Assembly: GCA_016875875.1 (NCBI GenBank)
Contig: VGOP01000002.1
Span: forward strand, 186,001 to 250,000
Direction: 5' to 3'
DNA from: Chloroflexota bacterium
GTDB taxonomy: Bacteria; Chloroflexota; Dehalococcoidia; GIF9; UBA5629
Length of the DNA: 64,000 nt
Shown piece after piece: positions 1-17,231 of the stretch (position 1 is its first letter; the number at the start of each line of letters is the position of its first letter). The position numbers and the translations under genes are program-made. Under the pieces are notes generated by a model. It saw nothing but the letters and a program-made list of their open reading frames with translations, had not been told where the DNA came from and made no database searches.

Positions 1-584
1 TGCAGAAGCTTTCCTTCCGTGATGTCGCCGGTAATAATCGCTCCGTTGCCGCTGGTGCTCATGACCAGAACCGCCGGTAACTCGGCAATAGCCAAGCGCT
101 CCGTCGTGGTTGAGAACTCGGGGTCGCTGGCGCTCAATGTGAAAGTCCCGACACTTGTATGTCTGGCCTCGATTTTTACTGTGGCGTCGGAAATCCGGTC
201 GGCAAGTGTTTTAGTTGAATCGCCATCACTTCCTGGCAGAACCACGAAAATTAAATCATGGTTAGTGAATATGGCATTGAGCTCTTGGACCCAAGCCAGG
301 TCGCCAATGCCCAGTGTAGATGCGGCATTGCAGACAGTATTGGATGCTATTTGCGGTATGCCACTCTTATCCAATGGGGTGCTTGAAGCATTGATATGCC
401 GCGTTACGATGGAATAGGTTGTCGCACTTATAACCATGAGCATTCCTAAGGCAAAGACGGCAATCTTCCACCATTGTTTCTTGCTCGGTGGTTGCTGCTT
501 AGTACTATCCGCCAGAGACGGACAACATCCCTTTTGGTCGCAACAATCTGCCTTTCGCATCTTTTCAGAGCCTTTATCGCTCAT
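1..584 (-). CDS. Membrane-anchored thioredoxin-fold-like protein, C-terminus cut by window edge
   Basis: An open frame begins at ATG 584, behind a GGAGG ribosome site, and runs off the left edge after 194 codons. The short N-terminus carries two Cys pairs (C14-C15 and C20-C21, CCDQKGCC), a possible soft-metal ligand set. A single transmembrane helix follows (about residues 39-58, rich in AVFALGMLMV). The extracytoplasmic part has alternating strands and an 'ELPAVLVM' segment resembling the cis-Pro strand of thioredoxins, but no CxxC is visible in the part present. It lies 32 nt downstream of arsR2 and probably shares its transcript. The family is not recognised; a role in arsenic handling is inferred only from the neighbours and the Cys pairs. 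Confidence 0.75.
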   Translation of the reverse strand, partial: MSDKGSEKMRKADCCDQKGCCPSLADSTKQQPPSKKQWWKIAVFALGMLMVISATTYSIVTRHINASSTPLDKSGIPQIASNTVCNAASTLGIGDLAWVQELNAIFTNHDLIFVVLPGSDGDSTKTLADRISDATVKIEARHTSVGTFTLSASDPEFSTTTERLAIAELPAVLVMSTSGNGAIITGDITEGKLL

Positions 585-10468: not shown

Positions 10469-10897
10469 CTAAGGGCAGAGGGGACAGGTTGGACACTGGG
10501 TGCAGAACGTGTTCTTGCAGTCTTGATATCCAGTCCAGTAGTCTCCGTATCCGTAATAGTAATACGGGTAGTAATATGGATAATTATATGGATAGTAGGA
10601 ATATGGGTATTGAGGATATTGAGGACATTCCGGACACTTCTGACATTCTGGACATAGTGTCTTGCCCTCTTGTAGACCTTTGGTATAGCCCTCGCTGTAG
10701 CCAGTCTCTTTACCTCTGTTTAAACCCTCGTTGTAACCTGTGTTGTAACCCTCTTGTTTCCCCTTTTCATACCATTGCTGGCACACTGGGGGCATTGTTC
10801 CTGGTGGTACGCAGGCGCATCCGGCAAAGAAAGCCCCGAGCAGAGTCAGAACAATTACCGGAAGCAAAATATATATCGTTCGCCTACTTATTCTCAT
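10469..10897 (-). CDS. Lipoprotein with nine GX3 repeats and CxxC clusters
   Basis: A 142-residue secreted lipoprotein (signal helix 8-25, lipobox F-A-G-C27). Residues 46-78 contain Gly at every fourth position nine times in a row (G46 to G78, for example GYNTGYNEGLNRG), the pattern known as deca-GX3 in Yae1/Lto1 proteins. C82, C85, C88 and C91 form one CxxC ladder and C132, C135, C138 and C141 another, separated by a Tyr/Pro-rich stretch (94-124). A strong AAGGAGGAG site precedes the ATG. It lies 104 nt downstream of the E2 gene on the same strand and could be the last gene of the ubiquitin-like operon; no direct functional link is visible. Confidence 0.8.
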   Translation of the reverse strand: MRISRRTIYILLPVIVLTLLGAFFAGCACVPPGTMPPVCQQWYEKGKQEGYNTGYNEGLNRGKETGYSEGYTKGLQEGKTLCPECQKCPECPQYPQYPYSYYPYNYPYYYPYYYYGYGDYWTGYQDCKNTFCTQCPTCPLCP

Positions 10898-11001: not shown

Positions 11002-12027
11002 CTATTTTCGCTTACTGCGTGCAGTACTTAGTTTGGGAGATTTAGCCTTTACTACCTGCTTTGTTTTTTGCTGCTTGCCTTTTGTTTTTGTTGCGGCCTT
11101 TTTTGTGGCTCGCTTTATCTTTACCGACCGAGTCGACTTTGCAGTCACCCTTGCCACCGCAAAGGGTTTCTGGAATGTAACCTTATCCTCTTCAGCTTCT
11201 TTAGAAGGCGTTGTTACTACTGCGTCATCCTTAAACAGAGGTCGTTTATCTAGCGGCATTTTTGCCTCATTAGCTTTAGTCCATTTTACCGCTTTCTGGT
11301 TATAGGGTTTCTCGAAACCATAGACTCGGTAGGTAATCATGTCTGCCAGGTGTGTAACCAGCCAGGCTATATCCAGAGAACTTTCCCAGTCTCGTTCTAT
11401 ACCGATGCAGACCATGTTGTTTTCCGGGCTGATATTGGGATGAAAATGGGGGGTGAGACACAGGACATAGGGTGCTTCGTTGGGATAACCAGGTATACCG
11501 GCTGGCAGATAAATCTCCATGATGTGGTTTGCCGTCAGGGTTGGCTTCTCGCTGGCAGGATTAAGCATTATGCCTTTGTATTTAAAAGTGACGCGGTATT
11601 TTGTGGGCGGGTCGCCCTCTATAGATTCAACCTCGATAAGGTCAGATTTGGCAGCTAGCTCCTTGAGCCATTCATGTTCTTGTTGCAGCCGCTTTTGTAA
11701 GTCGATTGTTTGTGTTTTCACGCCCGGCTGTATGAAATAGCACAGAACCAGTATCTCATTTTCAACGACACCGACTGAGGCTAGAGTCTGCCACGGGTGA
11801 AGCGTTAAGTATCGGGAGACCCCACCTCTTCTTAAATAGCGTCCCTCGGGATTCCGGTATAATTGCTCACCGGTCTTCTGAAGATAAGCGACCATTTGCC
11901 TCCCAGGTCCCCGCTCCTTAACTATTTGCGGTGTAATTTGCGAGAGCAGCCTTCCAACCGTGGCATTTTCGGAGACTAATGCCGGATAATAGCGGTCATG
12001 GGTGAAATCCCAGATGTATACTCTCAT
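11002..12027 (-). CDS. E2 ubiquitin-conjugating enzyme-like protein with N-terminal ubiquitin-like domain
   Basis: A 341-residue protein. Residues about 115-240 follow the E2/UBC fold: 'IMEIYLPAGIPGYPNEAPYV', the HPN motif (H196-P197-N198), and Cys207 nine residues later in 'NNMVCIG'. A Trp in 'RDWESSLDIAWLVTHLADMI' matches the conserved helix after the active site. Residues 1-102 resemble a ubiquitin-like beta-grasp domain: an opening strand, a helix near 24-37, and a final 'TLASVGVVENEILVLCYF' strand, but without a terminal GG. Residues 296-341 are an unusually Lys/Arg-rich tail. AAGGAGGTGG precedes the ATG. It follows the RING-like gene by 38 nt. It should accept a ubiquitin-like protein from the E1 at 12972-14168; the Ubl assignment is weaker than the E2 call. 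Confidence 0.88.
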   Translation of the reverse strand: MRVYIWDFTHDRYYPALVSENATVGRLLSQITPQIVKERGPGRQMVAYLQKTGEQLYRNPEGRYLRRGGVSRYLTLHPWQTLASVGVVENEILVLCYFIQPGVKTQTIDLQKRLQQEHEWLKELAAKSDLIEVESIEGDPPTKYRVTFKYKGIMLNPASEKPTLTANHIMEIYLPAGIPGYPNEAPYVLCLTPHFHPNISPENNMVCIGIERDWESSLDIAWLVTHLADMITYRVYGFEKPYNQKAVKWTKANEAKMPLDKRPLFKDDAVVTTPSKEAEEDKVTFQKPFAVARVTAKSTRSVKIKRATKKAATKTKGKQQKTKQVVKAKSPKLSTARSKRK

Positions 12028-12065: not shown

Positions 12066-12371
12066 TCAGGCCTCTTCTTTTGCCTTTTCCCCGAGTGGTG
12101 CCAGAGGGCACTCCCATGTGGTGCAGCCTCCATATTCCATCCAGCATGACCGGTGATGCACTGTGCCACACTTGGGGCAGGTGAAAGAAGGGTTTTTACT
12201 GCTGTATTCTTGTTTGCCGCACCAGAGGCAAGGTGTCTCCTCCACGTTTTTTTTAACTATCTCTTGGCTTGCTGGCTTGGCCTTGGTGTATCGCCGACGC
12301 ATTGTGTACAGGACTATGAAACCAATAACAAAGCCGGCTATGCATAGGGTGAGGACAAGCAATACCGTCAC
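12066..12371 (-). CDS. Membrane-anchored RING-like zinc-finger protein (E3 candidate)
   Basis: A 101-residue protein: an N-terminal transmembrane helix (about 3-23), a basic stop-transfer segment (RRRYTK), then a cytosolic treble-clef/RING-like finger. Zinc ligands are C48-x2-C51, C65-x2-C68, H72/H73, C76, C83 and C88, close to the prokaryotic RING families. It starts with GTG. It is encoded 17 nt after the zinc-ribbon membrane protein and 38 nt before the E2, the position expected for an E3 partner. A ubiquitin-ligase role is an inference from fold and neighbours; a non-catalytic zinc adaptor is possible. Confidence 0.8.
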   Translation of the reverse strand: MTVLLVLTLCIAGFVIGFIVLYTMRRRYTKAKPASQEIVKKNVEETPCLWCGKQEYSSKNPSFTCPKCGTVHHRSCWMEYGGCTTWECPLAPLGEKAKEEA

Positions 12372-12388
12372 GACTTCAACACCCCGCC

Positions 12389-12958
12389 TTATGCTACCTT
12401 ATGGCTCTCGTAAGCCCGATTGTATTTGCCAACGCTGGCATTAGCATCTATGACTTGCCAGACAAACAGGAAAATGTAGGCGATGGCTAGTATGGCAATC
12501 AAGGCGATGTAGGCGGATTCCATGTAGTAGTAATATGTAACGGCGCAGGCTATCAAACCACCAATGAGCGCCAACCCGGCAAAGAGAATGAGAAAACCTA
12601 TGGCTATTCTGCCCAGAATTATGTGTCCTAGGCCATGCAATCCGAAAATGCCGGGGATTACAGCCAGAGCCATGACTGTGTTCCCTGAGACACGGCTGTC
12701 GGGTATATGGATGTCACAGTATTGACACACTCTGGCATTCATATCTATTTCTTTTCCGTGCTCATGGCACATCCTTTTACGCCCATAGCGTTCCTCCCGC
12801 TCTGTGACTGCTGCTGCAGGCCCTACGGCTAATTCGCCGGCGATGACTTCTTCCTTGGTATACTTTCCGCAAGCCTTGCATTTGAAGTCGGCATTGTAGT
12901 CGGTAACAGGACCACAGCTAGGGCATAGACGGACTAGTCTTACCTCCAACTCTTCCAT
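12389..12958 (-). CDS. Zinc-ribbon multi-pass membrane protein
   Basis: A 189-residue protein. Residues 12-30 form a zinc ribbon (C12-x2-C15, C27-x2-C30), and a second Cys/His set follows (C64, H65, H67 region, C78-x2-C81). Three hydrophobic segments (about 95-115, 117-140 and 147-170) resemble TM2-type domains, including 'GLHGLGHIILGRIAIGFLIL'. GAAAGGAGG precedes the ATG. It is encoded 13 nt after the E1 gene and 17 nt before the RING-like gene. It is probably a membrane platform or substrate receptor for the conjugation enzymes; no catalytic residues are seen and no specific family is recognised beyond zinc-ribbon/TM2 likeness. Confidence 0.8.
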   Translation of the reverse strand: MEELEVRLVRLCPSCGPVTDYNADFKCKACGKYTKEEVIAGELAVGPAAAVTEREERYGRKRMCHEHGKEIDMNARVCQYCDIHIPDSRVSGNTVMALAVIPGIFGLHGLGHIILGRIAIGFLILFAGLALIGGLIACAVTYYYYMESAYIALIAILAIAYIFLFVWQVIDANASVGKYNRAYESHKVA

Positions 12959-12971
12959 AGTGAACCTCCTT

Positions 12972-14168
12972 TCATGTGAAATTTAATACTTTATCCCTGT
13001 CCGCGTCAAGTTCAAAGTGGGCCACTGACGCCATATTCCTTGCCGTGATAACGTGGAACGGCGGCACTTGCCCCTGGGACAAAGTCTTGTCCAGAATCCA
13101 TGGTGTAGCTTTGCTGATAGTGGATGTCATATCTGGCTGCATGAGTTTTTTGCATTTTGGACATCTTAGCTTGTCTGAGCTAAGTTTGTCGAGTCGTTTC
13201 AGAATCTGCCTAGAGTGACCGCAAGTGCAAGTCGCTCTGAAAACCAGGTCAAAATCCAGTTGTATAACTGCCCCGGAACCAAGTTTCTCTTCGGCCATAT
13301 TCAACAGTTCCCCGAAAGTGCTGTCGGCAGCGCCCCTTGCAGTACTAATAACGGATTTGAATTGATTATGGTTTAGGCATCTTTCGTTGAGGGGAAAGTT
13401 AGCCGGCAAAAACTCATTGGTCAACCCGTTGAAAACAAGGCCGCTGCCGCCGGTAATCTCATGCCCGTGGGTAAGTTTAAGAGCTTCCTGGACCTGGAGC
13501 CCGCCGATAATGGAGGCGATGGTGGGTGTTGTCGGGACTCTTCCCTGTTCTAGCTCCTCAATCGGTAGCAGGCAGGATAGGCGGCGTTTCATTTCCTTGT
13601 AGGCTTCCTTTGGTAGATTGCATTCGTAGCAGGCACCTTCACCGGGTATATAGACGTGGAATTCTCCAATCAGTTCCTGTATGCCGCCGTTAATCCAGGG
13701 CGTGCCCACCTTGAAGCAGGCGCGGTTGATAAAAATCCTAGCGCCGAAATTGTCCACTCCAACCAGAATGACATCCATATTGCGGAAGATGCCGAGGCCG
13801 ACATCGCTAGTGATATCACCACAAATGTAGGAAGCCTTGACATCCGGATTCAGCTCCTTCAGTCGCTGGGCAGCTACCTTGGCCTTTAGTTTACCGATGT
13901 CCTCAGCCCGGAACAGGACAGAGCGGGTAAGGTTGGCAGCTTCAACGACGTCAAAGTCAATTATAAGTATGCGGCCGGTGCCGACCAGTGCCAGGTTTTT
14001 CAGGATTTCGTTTCCTAAAGCTCCAGCACCGACTACCATCACCTTGGCCTTGGCCACCTTTTCCTGTTGCCACCAGGAAATCAATCTAAGAGTGTCGTAG
14101 CGACCCTGAATGGGGTCTGGAGTATGGCTAGGGTGTGAAGAAGCGTTCTGATTCTTCATCATATTCAT
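12972..14168 (-). CDS. E1-like ubiquitin-activating enzyme (ThiF/UBA family)
   Basis: A 398-residue adenylating enzyme. Residues 43-66 carry the nucleotide loop GAGALG. They are followed by 'DFDVVEAANLTRSVLF', the D-I-G-K-x-K-A helix and 'LNPDV', all standard for E1/ThiF/MoeB. C180-x2-C183 is a half zinc site. C199 in 'RRLSCLLP', upstream of 'PTTPTIASIIGGLQVQEALKL', is the candidate catalytic Cys. Unlike MoeB or ThiF, there is a roughly 130-residue C-terminal extension with a second zinc site (C314-x-C316, C336-x2-C339) and an end resembling an E1 ubiquitin-fold domain. The reading frame overlaps the JAMM gene by 41 nt. It should adenylate the Ubl C-terminus and load the E2. Confidence 0.9.
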   Translation of the reverse strand: MNMMKNQNASSHPSHTPDPIQGRYDTLRLISWWQQEKVAKAKVMVVGAGALGNEILKNLALVGTGRILIIDFDVVEAANLTRSVLFRAEDIGKLKAKVAAQRLKELNPDVKASYICGDITSDVGLGIFRNMDVILVGVDNFGARIFINRACFKVGTPWINGGIQELIGEFHVYIPGEGACYECNLPKEAYKEMKRRLSCLLPIEELEQGRVPTTPTIASIIGGLQVQEALKLTHGHEITGGSGLVFNGLTNEFLPANFPLNERCLNHNQFKSVISTARGAADSTFGELLNMAEEKLGSGAVIQLDFDLVFRATCTCGHSRQILKRLDKLSSDKLRCPKCKKLMQPDMTSTISKATPWILDKTLSQGQVPPFHVITARNMASVAHFELDADRDKVLNFT

Positions 14169-15789
14169 CGGTAGTTGAGTTTAAATTTTTGACCTTAAAG
14201 ACTAAGTTCTCACTGATTCCACTTCTTATTGTCTTGGATTTAAGGTGGAATACAAATTCAAATTCTCCGTTAGGCTTTAGTTCTTGAGCTTCGGGTGACT
14301 CCAAAATGGCAAACACTGCGCTGGAATCGATTGAAACCTCAACCATACCAGAACTATCTCCTCTATTCTGTACCAGAACTAAAACCTTCTCGCCCTCCCG
14401 TGAAATTTTCCCATCATCGTTTTCATCTTTTACAGAAATAATCTTGAAGCTCGGCAGTTTCTGCTCTGGTTTGGCCAACGGTTCGGTCACCGGAACGACT
14501 GTAACAAAAATGATAACCTCCTCAGTCTTTTTGTCACTATTGTAGCTAAAGAGCATTTTGTCTAGGTGGTCTCCCGGGCTGAGATCACTGCGCTTCGCCG
14601 TAACATTGATAGTAGCATTACCGACTCCAGATTCTTTATCCACCTTTATCCAGTCCGGTTTAGATGAGACGAGCCAGGAGAGGTTTCCGCTGCCGGTGAA
14701 TGATAACTGTAGAGGCATTGTATCTTTGGCTGCGCCAAAGAGCAAATACTTCTCAGAGACGGAGAGTGAGATGCCGGCTGTTGGTGTTGCGCTCGTCTCT
14801 GTCTTTCGCCACTCTGTAAGCTCACCGGTATTGATGATATATGCACTCAGAGTCCAAGGCTTCCCAGTTCCATCATTAGCTTGCAATTCCAAGGCGCCGA
14901 TGTTGTTACCACTATTCTCTTGTGGATTAGCTGTTGGCTGTTCCACAATTTCTTTCAAGGTGATGGGCAAGGATTTTTCTTTAGTCCAGGGCTTTTCCTT
15001 GTTCAGTGTATAACGCCAAACCTCGCCGTTATTTTGAATGAAATAATAGTTATATACCTCCCCTTTCTCTTCGTTACGGAATGGGACAGCAGCTACTGGA
15101 AAATCCTTGAATGGTGGTTGGCTTGCCTCCTTCTGTCCTCCTGGTAACCAGACGGTAAAGGCAAGTCCTATGATGATAAACAGAGCCACAAAAAGCGCCA
15201 AAGCCGGTATAAGGAAAGCAGGCATCTTCCTTTGCGGTGGTGCCATTTTCTCTGGCTGAAGTAATGGTTCTGGCTCATTAGACAGGACTTCATAGGTGTA
15301 GAAACCTTTGATCGCCTTTATTTCTGAGCTATCCCAACCGAAAAAGCTGAGCTCGTTTTTTATGGGGTCACATACAGCAGCCACATGCCACGGGTGTGAG
15401 AAAGCAACGCGATGGGAATTTACGTCATCATCGGACATGAAGGCGCCGAATCCGGGATGAGTGTGGTACCAGCCGACAACTTTCTGGTTGGGATAGTTTC
15501 TCTGAGCTGATTCTACGAGCTGTAGCCAGACCTCATGGGTGAACTGCGCCTGGGTTTGATTCCCGGGAGCAGAATCCGATTTAACAATGCCGACGATGTC
15601 AACCCGATATTTGCCAGTGCTATCTTCGGAGACATTGCCCAGAAGGATACCGACTATCTCTCGTTGAGGATTGGCTGCACCGTGGCGATAAATGGCGTCG
15701 TAAGCTTGCTTCTCTATGTAGATAACAACCTTGCTATCTTCAGGGCTTCCCCAGACCTTCAAGCTCGCCTTGCCGCTGATTCTGTTCAT
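14128..15789 (-). CDS. JAMM/MPN isopeptidase with transmembrane helix and extracellular BACON/CARDB-like domains
   Basis: A 553-residue protein. Residues 18-170 are a JAB1/MPN domain with a complete metalloprotease set: E44, H109-x-H111, S119 and D122 (H-x-H-x7-S-x2-D). This predicts a zinc deubiquitinase-type isopeptidase, and with no signal peptide the domain is cytosolic. A transmembrane helix (about 190-215) is followed by a large outside part: a beta-rich region (225-335), a BACON-like domain (about 340-433, with 'WLVSSKPDWIKVDKESG') and a CARDB/Ig-like domain (about 447-535). The start overlaps the previous stop (ATGA). The architecture resembles a receptor that could sense outside signals and control de-conjugation inside. 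Confidence 0.9.
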   Translation of the reverse strand: MNRISGKASLKVWGSPEDSKVVIYIEKQAYDAIYRHGAANPQREIVGILLGNVSEDSTGKYRVDIVGIVKSDSAPGNQTQAQFTHEVWLQLVESAQRNYPNQKVVGWYHTHPGFGAFMSDDDVNSHRVAFSHPWHVAAVCDPIKNELSFFGWDSSEIKAIKGFYTYEVLSNEPEPLLQPEKMAPPQRKMPAFLIPALALFVALFIIIGLAFTVWLPGGQKEASQPPFKDFPVAAVPFRNEEKGEVYNYYFIQNNGEVWRYTLNKEKPWTKEKSLPITLKEIVEQPTANPQENSGNNIGALELQANDGTGKPWTLSAYIINTGELTEWRKTETSATPTAGISLSVSEKYLLFGAAKDTMPLQLSFTGSGNLSWLVSSKPDWIKVDKESGVGNATINVTAKRSDLSPGDHLDKMLFSYNSDKKTEEVIIFVTVVPVTEPLAKPEQKLPSFKIISVKDENDDGKISREGEKVLVLVQNRGDSSGMVEVSIDSSAVFAILESPEAQELKPNGEFEFVFHLKSKTIRSGISENLVFKVKNLNSTTDEYDEESERFFTP

Positions 15790-17231
15790 CGGCCTTTACG
15801 CGTGCTCTTGCTTGGCTTCTTTTTTTCGCCCTTTTTACCTCGGCCCTCTTTACCAGTCTTTTGTTGAGCTTTCCCCTTAGCCGCACCCTTCCGTTTTTGC
15901 AGTTTCAGCCCTCGGAATTTTCCACCGGTTAGAAAGTAGGCGGCAACAAGGCCACCTATGACTCCGACGACCGCTGGGATAATCACCAGAATTAAGGGAA
16001 ATGGTTTGATAGACTTTAACTCCATCCCGTTCTGGTTAAGCATAAGTCTGATCCGCTGGCCACTCTGGCCTTCGATCCTTCCGCTCATAGTCACTGGCTC
16101 GAAGTACTGGTTGTTCAGGGTTGTGGCAGCGGCAACTGTATAGTCAGTGTTCTGAGCGCCCTGGAGTTCTATAAAATAGCGGCCGAACTCTGGTTTGGTA
16201 ATGAGGTACAGTTTCTTATTGTCCATATTGAACCACGGTGGCGATATCTCCTTTGATCCAAAGAGCAACTTTCTCGGCTCCACCGGCCCGTCAATGGTGA
16301 TACCAACGATATTCTGCCATGTGGAGTATTCCTTAGCTTCTGGCCAGCCAGGGAAAGCATCGAAGGTGAAATCAGATAAATCAATATCCGGTGGATAAAA
16401 AGAACGCCTCAGGGTGAAGTTAACTTCGGAAGCGCCGCGCTCGGCCTGAACCTGTACACTTTTGCCAGGCTGTGGTTCGCAGGCGATTGCATCGGCAGAA
16501 ACAGTTTCTGTAACCGTAGGTATCTGGTTAATCAAAGTGTAATTGTTGCCAAGCTGGTAGGAGATAAATTCATAAAATCCATCGTTGTTTGTTGTGGTGC
16601 TTTGCATAGTACTGGCAAGATAAACAGTAGCCATGCTAATCGGGTTCTGATTGGTGTCAGTGACGCGGCCTGATATGGACGCTGCCCGGCTGAAAACGCG
16701 AATGTCATACGAGGCATTGCCCGTGACCGTAGTCGCCTGGAGGCAGGGGTAAGTCTCGAACCAGCAATCTGAAGCAACACATACGTAGCTGACGCAACTG
16801 CCCCATACTTCCACTACGGCTTGACCCTCGCAGGTGAATCTTACCTGTCCTGGTGTTGATGGTGCCGACCACGAGAATGTATAAGTGCCACTTGTGGTGA
16901 AGTTGGCAATTGTTTCCTGAAGACCACTTGGAAGCTGGGCTAGCACACGAACATAGGTGTTGACTACAGATGTGCTGACGGTAATATTTACAGTCTCGCC
17001 GGCCAAATATACTGGCTTGTCGGTCCTCAGCGACAGTGAAAGATATGATGTTTGGAGAGCGATTTTGCTCTGGATAGTTTCTTCATTAGATAAAGTGGCA
17101 TTTGTAAATATTGGAATAGCTTCCTTTACTTGGAAATTTGAAGCAGTTACTTGACATGGCACAACCACGGAACCTATTGTAAATAAGCCCAAAACCAAGG
17201 TACCAGCTAGGATCAGCAGAATGAATCTCAT
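15786..17231 (-). CDS. Surface-exposed membrane protein with carboxypeptidase-regulatory-like domain and Lys-rich cytosolic tail
   Basis: A 481-residue protein with an N-terminal signal peptide (about 1-30). The extracytoplasmic part has an Ig-like region (about 62-135, 'DKPVYLAGETVNITV'), a Cys-rich stretch (C133-C163), a carboxypeptidase-regulatory-like fold (about 185-265, 'ISGRVTDTNQNPISMATVYL') and a beta-rich domain. A transmembrane helix (about 413-438) leads to a cytosolic tail of about 40 residues dominated by Lys, Arg and Gly. The first gene of the ubiquitin-like operon, it overlaps the JAMM gene by 4 nt and has a strong GGGAGGAGGG site. The tail is a plausible conjugation target; that is inference. 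Confidence 0.85.
   Translation of the reverse strand: MRFILLILAGTLVLGLFTIGSVVVPCQVTASNFQVKEAIPIFTNATLSNEETIQSKIALQTSYLSLSLRTDKPVYLAGETVNITVSTSVVNTYVRVLAQLPSGLQETIANFTTSGTYTFSWSAPSTPGQVRFTCEGQAVVEVWGSCVSYVCVASDCWFETYPCLQATTVTGNASYDIRVFSRAASISGRVTDTNQNPISMATVYLASTMQSTTTNNDGFYEFISYQLGNNYTLINQIPTVTETVSADAIACEPQPGKSVQVQAERGASEVNFTLRRSFYPPDIDLSDFTFDAFPGWPEAKEYSTWQNIVGITIDGPVEPRKLLFGSKEISPPWFNMDNKKLYLITKPEFGRYFIELQGAQNTDYTVAAATTLNNQYFEPVTMSGRIEGQSGQRIRLMLNQNGMELKSIKPFPLILVIIPAVVGVIGGLVAAYFLTGGKFRGLKLQKRKGAAKGKAQQKTGKEGRGKKGEKKKPSKSTRKGR

Follow-up and report, generated by a model that had tools for sequence, protein, structure and literature searches.

A predicted receptor-like, membrane-tethered JAMM isopeptidase in a ubiquitin-like operon of a Chloroflexota bacterium

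A stretch of 64,000 nucleotides from a Chloroflexota bacterium (the window) carries, at positions 14128-15789 of the minus strand, a gene whose product appears to join a JAMM domain through one transmembrane (TM) helix to a long outer part, within an operon for a ubiquitin-like system. We consider it probable, at roughly 0.6, that this protein is a single-pass, membrane-tethered maturase and deconjugase of the ubiquitin-like modifier (Ubl), anchored to the cell envelope and possibly gated by it. The active JAMM domain would face the cytosol. There it would take the modifier off its targets, and probably mature it as well, for a ubiquitin-like system that operates along the membrane's inner face. 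The long beta ectodomain would stand in the envelope, probably in complex with a translationally coupled exported partner (15786-17231). The parts of the protein are as follows.

14128-15789, minus strand: the whole JAMM-TM-ectodomain protein, 553 residues (open reading frame, ORF; Pfam)
15295-15789, minus strand: predicted cytosolic JAMM (MPN+) domain, residues 1-165 (Pfam, alignment, Rpn11 fold match)
15424-15465, minus strand: motif H109-x-H111-P-x6-S119-x2-D122, with E44 further N-terminal
15163-15219, minus strand: TM helix, residues 191-209 (hydropathy, shuffles, model helix 191-214)
14794-15117, minus strand: beta domain without assigned family, residues ~225-332 (both structure models)
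14494-14778, minus strand: BACON-type Ig-like domain, residues ~338-432, of which Pfam covers 342-406 (Pfam, fold match)
14131-14472, minus strand: putative Ig-like C-terminal domain, residues ~440-553 (structure model, fold search)

The ORF is a real gene under purifying selection, and the complete JAMM site and the single helix described in a sequence-only reading of this DNA are both there. It is kept as a protein in six relatives within the same family (matches in 7 of the 60 genomes sampled, the window's own genome counted), and the ratio of non-synonymous to synonymous substitutions (omega) is far lower than 1 in all domains compared, at 0.06-0.36 over the JAMM and the three outer domains, with strong selection on the JAMM domain (0.06-0.12). 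No ribosome-binding site can be clearly assigned to the gene itself, which overlaps both neighbours, by ATGA with the upstream partner gene and by 41 bases with the E1 gene. Pfam JAB matches residues 23-127 with 52.5 bits against a cut-off of 22.5, and Prok-JAB scores 39.7 bits against 25, the sole Prok-JAB match over cut-off in the window's own genome. The best solved relatives of the domain are yeast Rpn11 chains (2.7e-14) and an Rpn11-like Caldiarchaeum protein (2.9e-10), and a Foldseek search with the structure model returned Rpn11 and CsRpn11 as its top matches (best E 1.3e-7), in agreement with an MPN fold. A Glu plus HxHP...SxxD is the metal-site motif of JAMM enzymes; all five residues (E44, H109, H111, S119 and D122) are there, and across the 58 proteins of alignment A7 the last four are invariant and E44 nearly so. 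The domain thus appears to be an Rpn11-like MPN+ isopeptidase with a complete site, for which zinc-dependent activity is predicted. Between enzyme and ectodomain, helix prediction and a shuffle test find one TM helix; none of 5000 shuffled versions of the protein reached its mean Kyte-Doolittle value of 2.88.

Two structure predictions concur on an all-beta ectodomain in three parts, spanning about 340 residues after the helix. The first part, overlooked by the sequence-only reading as was the partner gene (15786-17231), had no Pfam match in the ectodomain scan, and residues 225-332 were barely tested by the fold search because the list of folds was filled by the BACON region. The BACON-like assignment of the second part stood up to a profile search: BACON_2 (PF19190) scores 31 bits against a cut-off of 25, or 31.9 bits with the ectodomain scanned alone, and PF13004 stays under its cut-off. 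The same region matches the fold of 3zmr, a Bacteroides xyloglucanase (Z 12.1, 2.3 A, 87 residues), in a part that we take to be its BACON domain, and that of 4zmh (Z 12.3, 2.1 A, 98 residues). The BACON domain of 4zmh is named in PMC11216935. The last ~110 residues are predicted to be all-beta, which would fit, with low confidence, an Ig-like sandwich; the CARDB half of the original CARDB/Ig-like assignment was rejected, as PF07705 had no Pfam match at E<=5 in six ectodomains (the window's and those of five orthologues). The premise that both domain types usually bind carbohydrates or proteins is accordingly weak: CARDB was not found, and carbohydrate binding by BACON is described as unproven, its sole structure acting as a linker (PMC6949934). 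PMC11216935 groups BACON with membrane-bound spacers, and an argument from ligand-binding domains loses weight because of these descriptions; we therefore do not take BACON as proof of a ligand. The genome's sole other BACON-like match is in a 271-residue protein with a signal-like start (L002, 1093-1908, minus strand).

The protein is best read as a cytosolic JAMM domain, one helix and an extracytoplasmic beta ectodomain. It has no N-terminal signal helix, and the charges beside its own helix point to an inside N-terminus (Lys plus Arg, 3 before the helix against 0 after within 10 residues, 3:1 within 15, 3:2 within 20). This orientation is further backed by relatives that carry LysM, a peptidoglycan-binding domain, after the same helix. 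A reversed topology, with the JAMM domain outside and acting on cell-surface proteins, could draw on the flank-charge rule, which does not decide in the relatives: among 56 helix-bearing JAMM proteins 23 follow it as expected, 22 go against and 11 are tied. Such an orientation is nevertheless highly improbable, given the missing signal helix, the charges of the window protein and the cytosolic nature of the E1, E2 and RING products; it would also leave the LysM domains of the relatives in the cytosol, and the BACON-like match in L002 is likewise in a protein with a signal-like start.

The operon runs in the order exported membrane partner, JAMM, E1, zinc-ribbon membrane protein, membrane RING, Ubl-E2 fusion and small exported protein. 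Besides the JAMM gene its features are these.

15786-17231, minus strand: exported partner, 481 residues, with signal/anchor helix 6-24, CarboxypepD_reg domain 185-274, TM helix 413-431 and basic tail (Pfam, helix prediction)
12972-14168, minus strand: E1 of the ThiF family, 398 residues (Pfam, 190 bits)
12389-12958, minus strand: protein of 189 residues with double-zinc-ribbon-like N-terminus and 2-3 TM helices (DZR under cut-off; helix prediction)
12066-12371, minus strand: membrane RING protein, 101 residues, Prok-RING_1, TM helix 3-21 (Pfam, helix prediction)
11002-12027, minus strand: Ubl-E2 fusion with K/R-rich tail, 341 residues (Pfam, alignment, profile comparison)
11722-12027, minus strand: ubiquitin-like domain of the fusion, residues 1-102, with the end ...CYFIQPG (alignment, profile comparison, controls)
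11224-11721, minus strand: E2 domain of the fusion, residues ~103-268 (Pfam; H196-P-N198 and C207 invariant, 5/5)
10469-10897, minus strand: small exported protein, 142 residues, with Gly-Tyr repeats and a Cys-Pro/Tyr-rich end (ORF, helix prediction)

E1, E2 with its catalytic Cys, RING and JAB stand together in this one operon, and their order is conserved. It is kept in G001 and G015, and also in G019 apart from the small exported gene, which is doubled there and moved upstream; G002, G005 and G009 show the operon in part because their contigs end. The partner gene adjoins the JAMM gene in 5 of 5 relatives whose contig spans the place. The Lys-rich tail of the partner was considered as a conjugation target, an idea dropped because the tail is not conserved in G005 and G019. 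The small exported protein, which has a weak Yae1_N match, is a possible candidate for a surface ligand of the JAMM ectodomain. Systems of the window type are rare in the class, being found at E<=1e-10 in 5 of 393 genomes, the window's own included, one of them through a weak match confined to the JAMM domain.

The operon might instead encode a Bil/CBASS-type system for conflict or defence against phage, in which the JAMM protein senses phage adsorption or is blocked by it. The PADLOC JAB and E1-E2 models do match weakly to moderately, Ubl-E2 fusions occur with JAB in predicted conflict systems (PMC7159879), and a restriction-like gene, so labelled from reading its sequence, adjoins the operon in G001 and G015. 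We nonetheless regard this explanation as quite unlikely: PADLOC gave no match for the E2, the zinc-ribbon protein, the partner or a free Ubl, and for the RING just a weak Cas12f match, and, as would not be expected of a mobile defence island, the operon has the same metabolic genes at its flanks in the window, G001 and G015. The PADLOC result was rejected as evidence for defence, its matches being to generic JAB and E1 models only. The gene with the restriction-enzyme-like label encodes 1,030-1,044 residues and has the dehydratase-activator genes on one side and the partner gene on the other in G001 and G015 (L010, 764-3898, and L012, 5277-8369, both on the minus strand); it is not in the window.

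Scanning named genomes with a query that includes the TM helix gave 231 confirmed matches, of which the best make up the 79 loci used here, from Planctomycetota, Acidobacteriota, Armatimonadota, Myxococcota, Verrucomicrobiota, Bacillota, Chloroflexota and other phyla. A JAMM domain followed by a TM helix is present in 65 of the 79, mostly within operons that also encode E1, E2, RING and a YukD-like Ubl; the figure is no census because the loci are the best matches to a helix-bearing query. With profiles built in this analysis, E1 was found in 72 loci, E2 in 62, RING in 56 and Ubl in 64, and all four together with a TM-bearing JAMM in 40, a number of the misses sitting on short contigs. Where a locus has at least two JAMM proteins (n=21), exactly one bears the helix in 17 cases and two do so in none. 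A Pfam scan of 58 JAMM proteins (56 with the helix, the window protein, and L022 with a helix under threshold) found LysM in 12 and BACON_2 in 4, and the LysM count suggests that holding a JAMM enzyme at the envelope is a recurring design. In a quick tree, used solely for placing these groups, the LysM forms cluster among Armatimonadota and Bacillota rows and the window clade among Chloroflexota. Beside the window clade sit two Chloroflexota JAMM-TM proteins (L026, 1069-2271; L027, 8902-10104) with ~138 outer residues and no Pfam match there. Trypsin_2 peptidases (E 7e-30 to 6e-33) lie upstream of two LysM-JAMM operons (L031, 5016-5927; L023, 6385-7278) and near the G019 operon (L013, 15984-17228, minus strand), where the peptidase is fused to an AhpC/TSA domain.

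Several observations weigh against an anchored and possibly gated enzyme. Confidence in the structure models is low to middling (mean pLDDT of 58.6 over the full length and of 67.2 in the model of residues 215-553), and the ectodomains of G005 and G019 are just 20-21% identical to that of the window, with BACON at E 0.15 in one case and no match in the other. Past the helix, 7 of the 56 helix-bearing JAMM proteins keep fewer than 40 residues and 14 keep 40-99; with many relatives so short, sensing would not be general. BACON, moreover, may serve merely as a spacer (PMC6949934, PMC11216935). A serious rival reading makes the ectodomain a passive anchor or spacer that simply keeps a constitutively active JAMM enzyme at the membrane, close to the RING and its membrane substrates. 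The short relatives and the description of BACON as linker or spacer fit this view, as does the activity of CsRpn11 on its own (PMC6043591), and we give it a substantial chance, if short of an even one. It is disfavoured by the ~340 outer residues that the window clade keeps under purifying selection and by the dedicated exported partner, because a mere anchor would need neither. An anchored and possibly gated enzyme remains our preferred reading.

The modifier itself appears to be encoded in the same operon. In the window family the first 102 residues of the E2 protein form a domain with the end ...ENEILVLCYFIQPG, whereas the Ubl of relatives is mostly a separate gene of ~89 residues ending ...LRLQPEITAG; of 63 Ubl-bearing ORFs in relatives three are fused to E2. 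Pfam recognizes YukD in three of four free Ubls scanned, the fourth (L049) being Rad60-SLD-like, and the free-Ubl profile matches ubiquitin chains in PDB. Compared profile to profile, the fused domain matches these YukD-like free Ubls with 96.3% probability (E 1.8e-9) and with Gly102 aligned to their C-terminal Gly; two unrelated control profiles gave 0.4% and 0.2%. Of all parts of the proteins compared, the fused domain is under the strongest constraint (omega 0.03-0.06). A free Ubl was not found in the window's own genome (96.75% complete), in which the best match was the fused domain itself (E 0.047), followed by a match of 23 columns (0.54), and there was no further match to the E2 family profile. 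The window operon holds no free modifier with an exposed C-terminal Gly; that of the fused Ubl would be exposed only by a cut. From the register of the Ubl domain, its constraint, the lack of a free Ubl and the single Prok-JAB match in the genome we therefore propose that the JAMM enzyme matures the Ubl from the Ubl-E2 protein by a cut after Gly102. There is precedent for such cleavage in CsRpn11, which cleaves a ubiquitin precursor and a ubiquitin-GFP fusion (PMC6043591, PMC5654768), and for other systems it has already been suggested that a JAB peptidase frees the Ubl from a Ubl-E2 protein (PMC7159879).

The fused Ubl may instead be a fixed adaptor domain of the E2, with an undetected protein elsewhere as the true modifier. 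Its end is PG, not TAG or GG, and Pfam YukD has no match on it; at three Chloroflexota loci (L033, L040 and L067) a Ubl-E2 fusion with the junction ...TAG/A stands alongside a separate free Ubl. The PG end and these three loci count against maturation from the fusion, and we see an adaptor as a real possibility without favouring it. The profile match with its Gly in register, the strongest constraint among the proteins compared and the lack of another candidate in a nearly complete genome speak for the fused Ubl as the modifier.

As we picture the pathway, the modifier would be the Ubl domain ahead of the E2, which the JAMM enzyme would cut off after Gly102; the freed Ubl would then be activated by the E1 and handed to the E2. 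The membrane side of the system would consist of the membrane RING, the membrane zinc-ribbon protein and the E2 with its basic tail, and the RING would place Ubl on membrane or membrane-near proteins, from which the receptor-shaped JAMM would remove it again. The ectodomain and its partner would hold the enzyme at an envelope component and may report the state of that component or regulate the enzyme, and the LysM-bearing relatives would likewise hold a JAMM domain at peptidoglycan. A bolder version, which we think unlikely, makes the JAMM protein and its partner a ligand-gated receptor: an envelope signal would cause Ubl to be freed from a Ubl-E2 pro-enzyme after Gly102 and later to be deconjugated, so that tagging at the membrane would be under on-off control from outside. 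LysM, BACON/Ig and other ectodomains across phyla would then be interchangeable sensors on one conserved enzyme, like PASTA or extracellular Ig domains on kinases and phosphatases.

Receptor-type phosphatases and PASTA kinases serve here only as an analogy, with a cytosolic modifying or demodifying enzyme, one helix and outer binding domains; they differ from the window JAMM in their chemistry and share no homology with it. Transmembrane deubiquitinases exist, for example USP30, and none is known to be controlled by an extracellular ligand. Bacterial operons with E1, E2, RING, JAB and a YukD-like Ubl were reportedly described by Burroughs, Iyer and Aravind in 2011. The window shares this whole set with operons of that type and differs in the BACON/Ig ectodomain on its JAMM protein, in the coupled exported partner and in a Ubl fused to E2 without a free copy found. 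The operon work of Burroughs et al. is cited in PMC4197634 and PMC7159879. Earlier types of E1/E2/JAB operon were presented by Iyer et al. 2006 (PMC1779556), where, in the portions cited here, transmembrane helices occur just with YukD, and PMC4327156 reports no complete ubiquitin toolkit in the bacteria that it examined. The ubiquitin operon of Caldiarchaeum subterraneum likewise combines an Rpn11-like JAMM with E1, E2 and RING; CsRpn11, which cuts precursor and N-terminal fusions, is soluble, and the cited portions of its description mention no ectodomain (PMC5654768, PMC6043591). The FtsH ternary conflict systems share with the window a Ubl and an E2 in one protein, with release by JAB proposed by the authors, and differ in that their Ubls carry EAD1 and are found alongside caspase-like effectors (PMC7159879). 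Bil (BilABCD) also has E1, E2, JAMM and Ubl, its JAMM maturing the Ubl, but BilA has two Ubl domains, where the window protein has one, and no membrane parts are described in the cited portions of PMC11354881.

A word-based search of titles and the beginnings of abstracts in the Creative Commons-licensed PMC literature found no transmembrane, LysM-bearing or receptor-like JAMM. The earlier claim of novelty among ubiquitin-like systems can thus be kept for the receptor-like reading and has to be given up for membrane anchoring of a JAMM as such, in view of the helix-bearing relatives. The system appears to be a known one, and the receptor-like JAMM with its coupled exported partner and the fused Ubl appears to be new. 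If our reading is true, bacteria would possess a ubiquitin-like pathway at the cell membrane, with its reversal tied to the cell envelope. It would also allow the role of the little-studied bacterial E1/E2/RING operons to be tested cleanly, because the LysM- and BACON-bearing JAMM proteins point to the envelope as the site of action.

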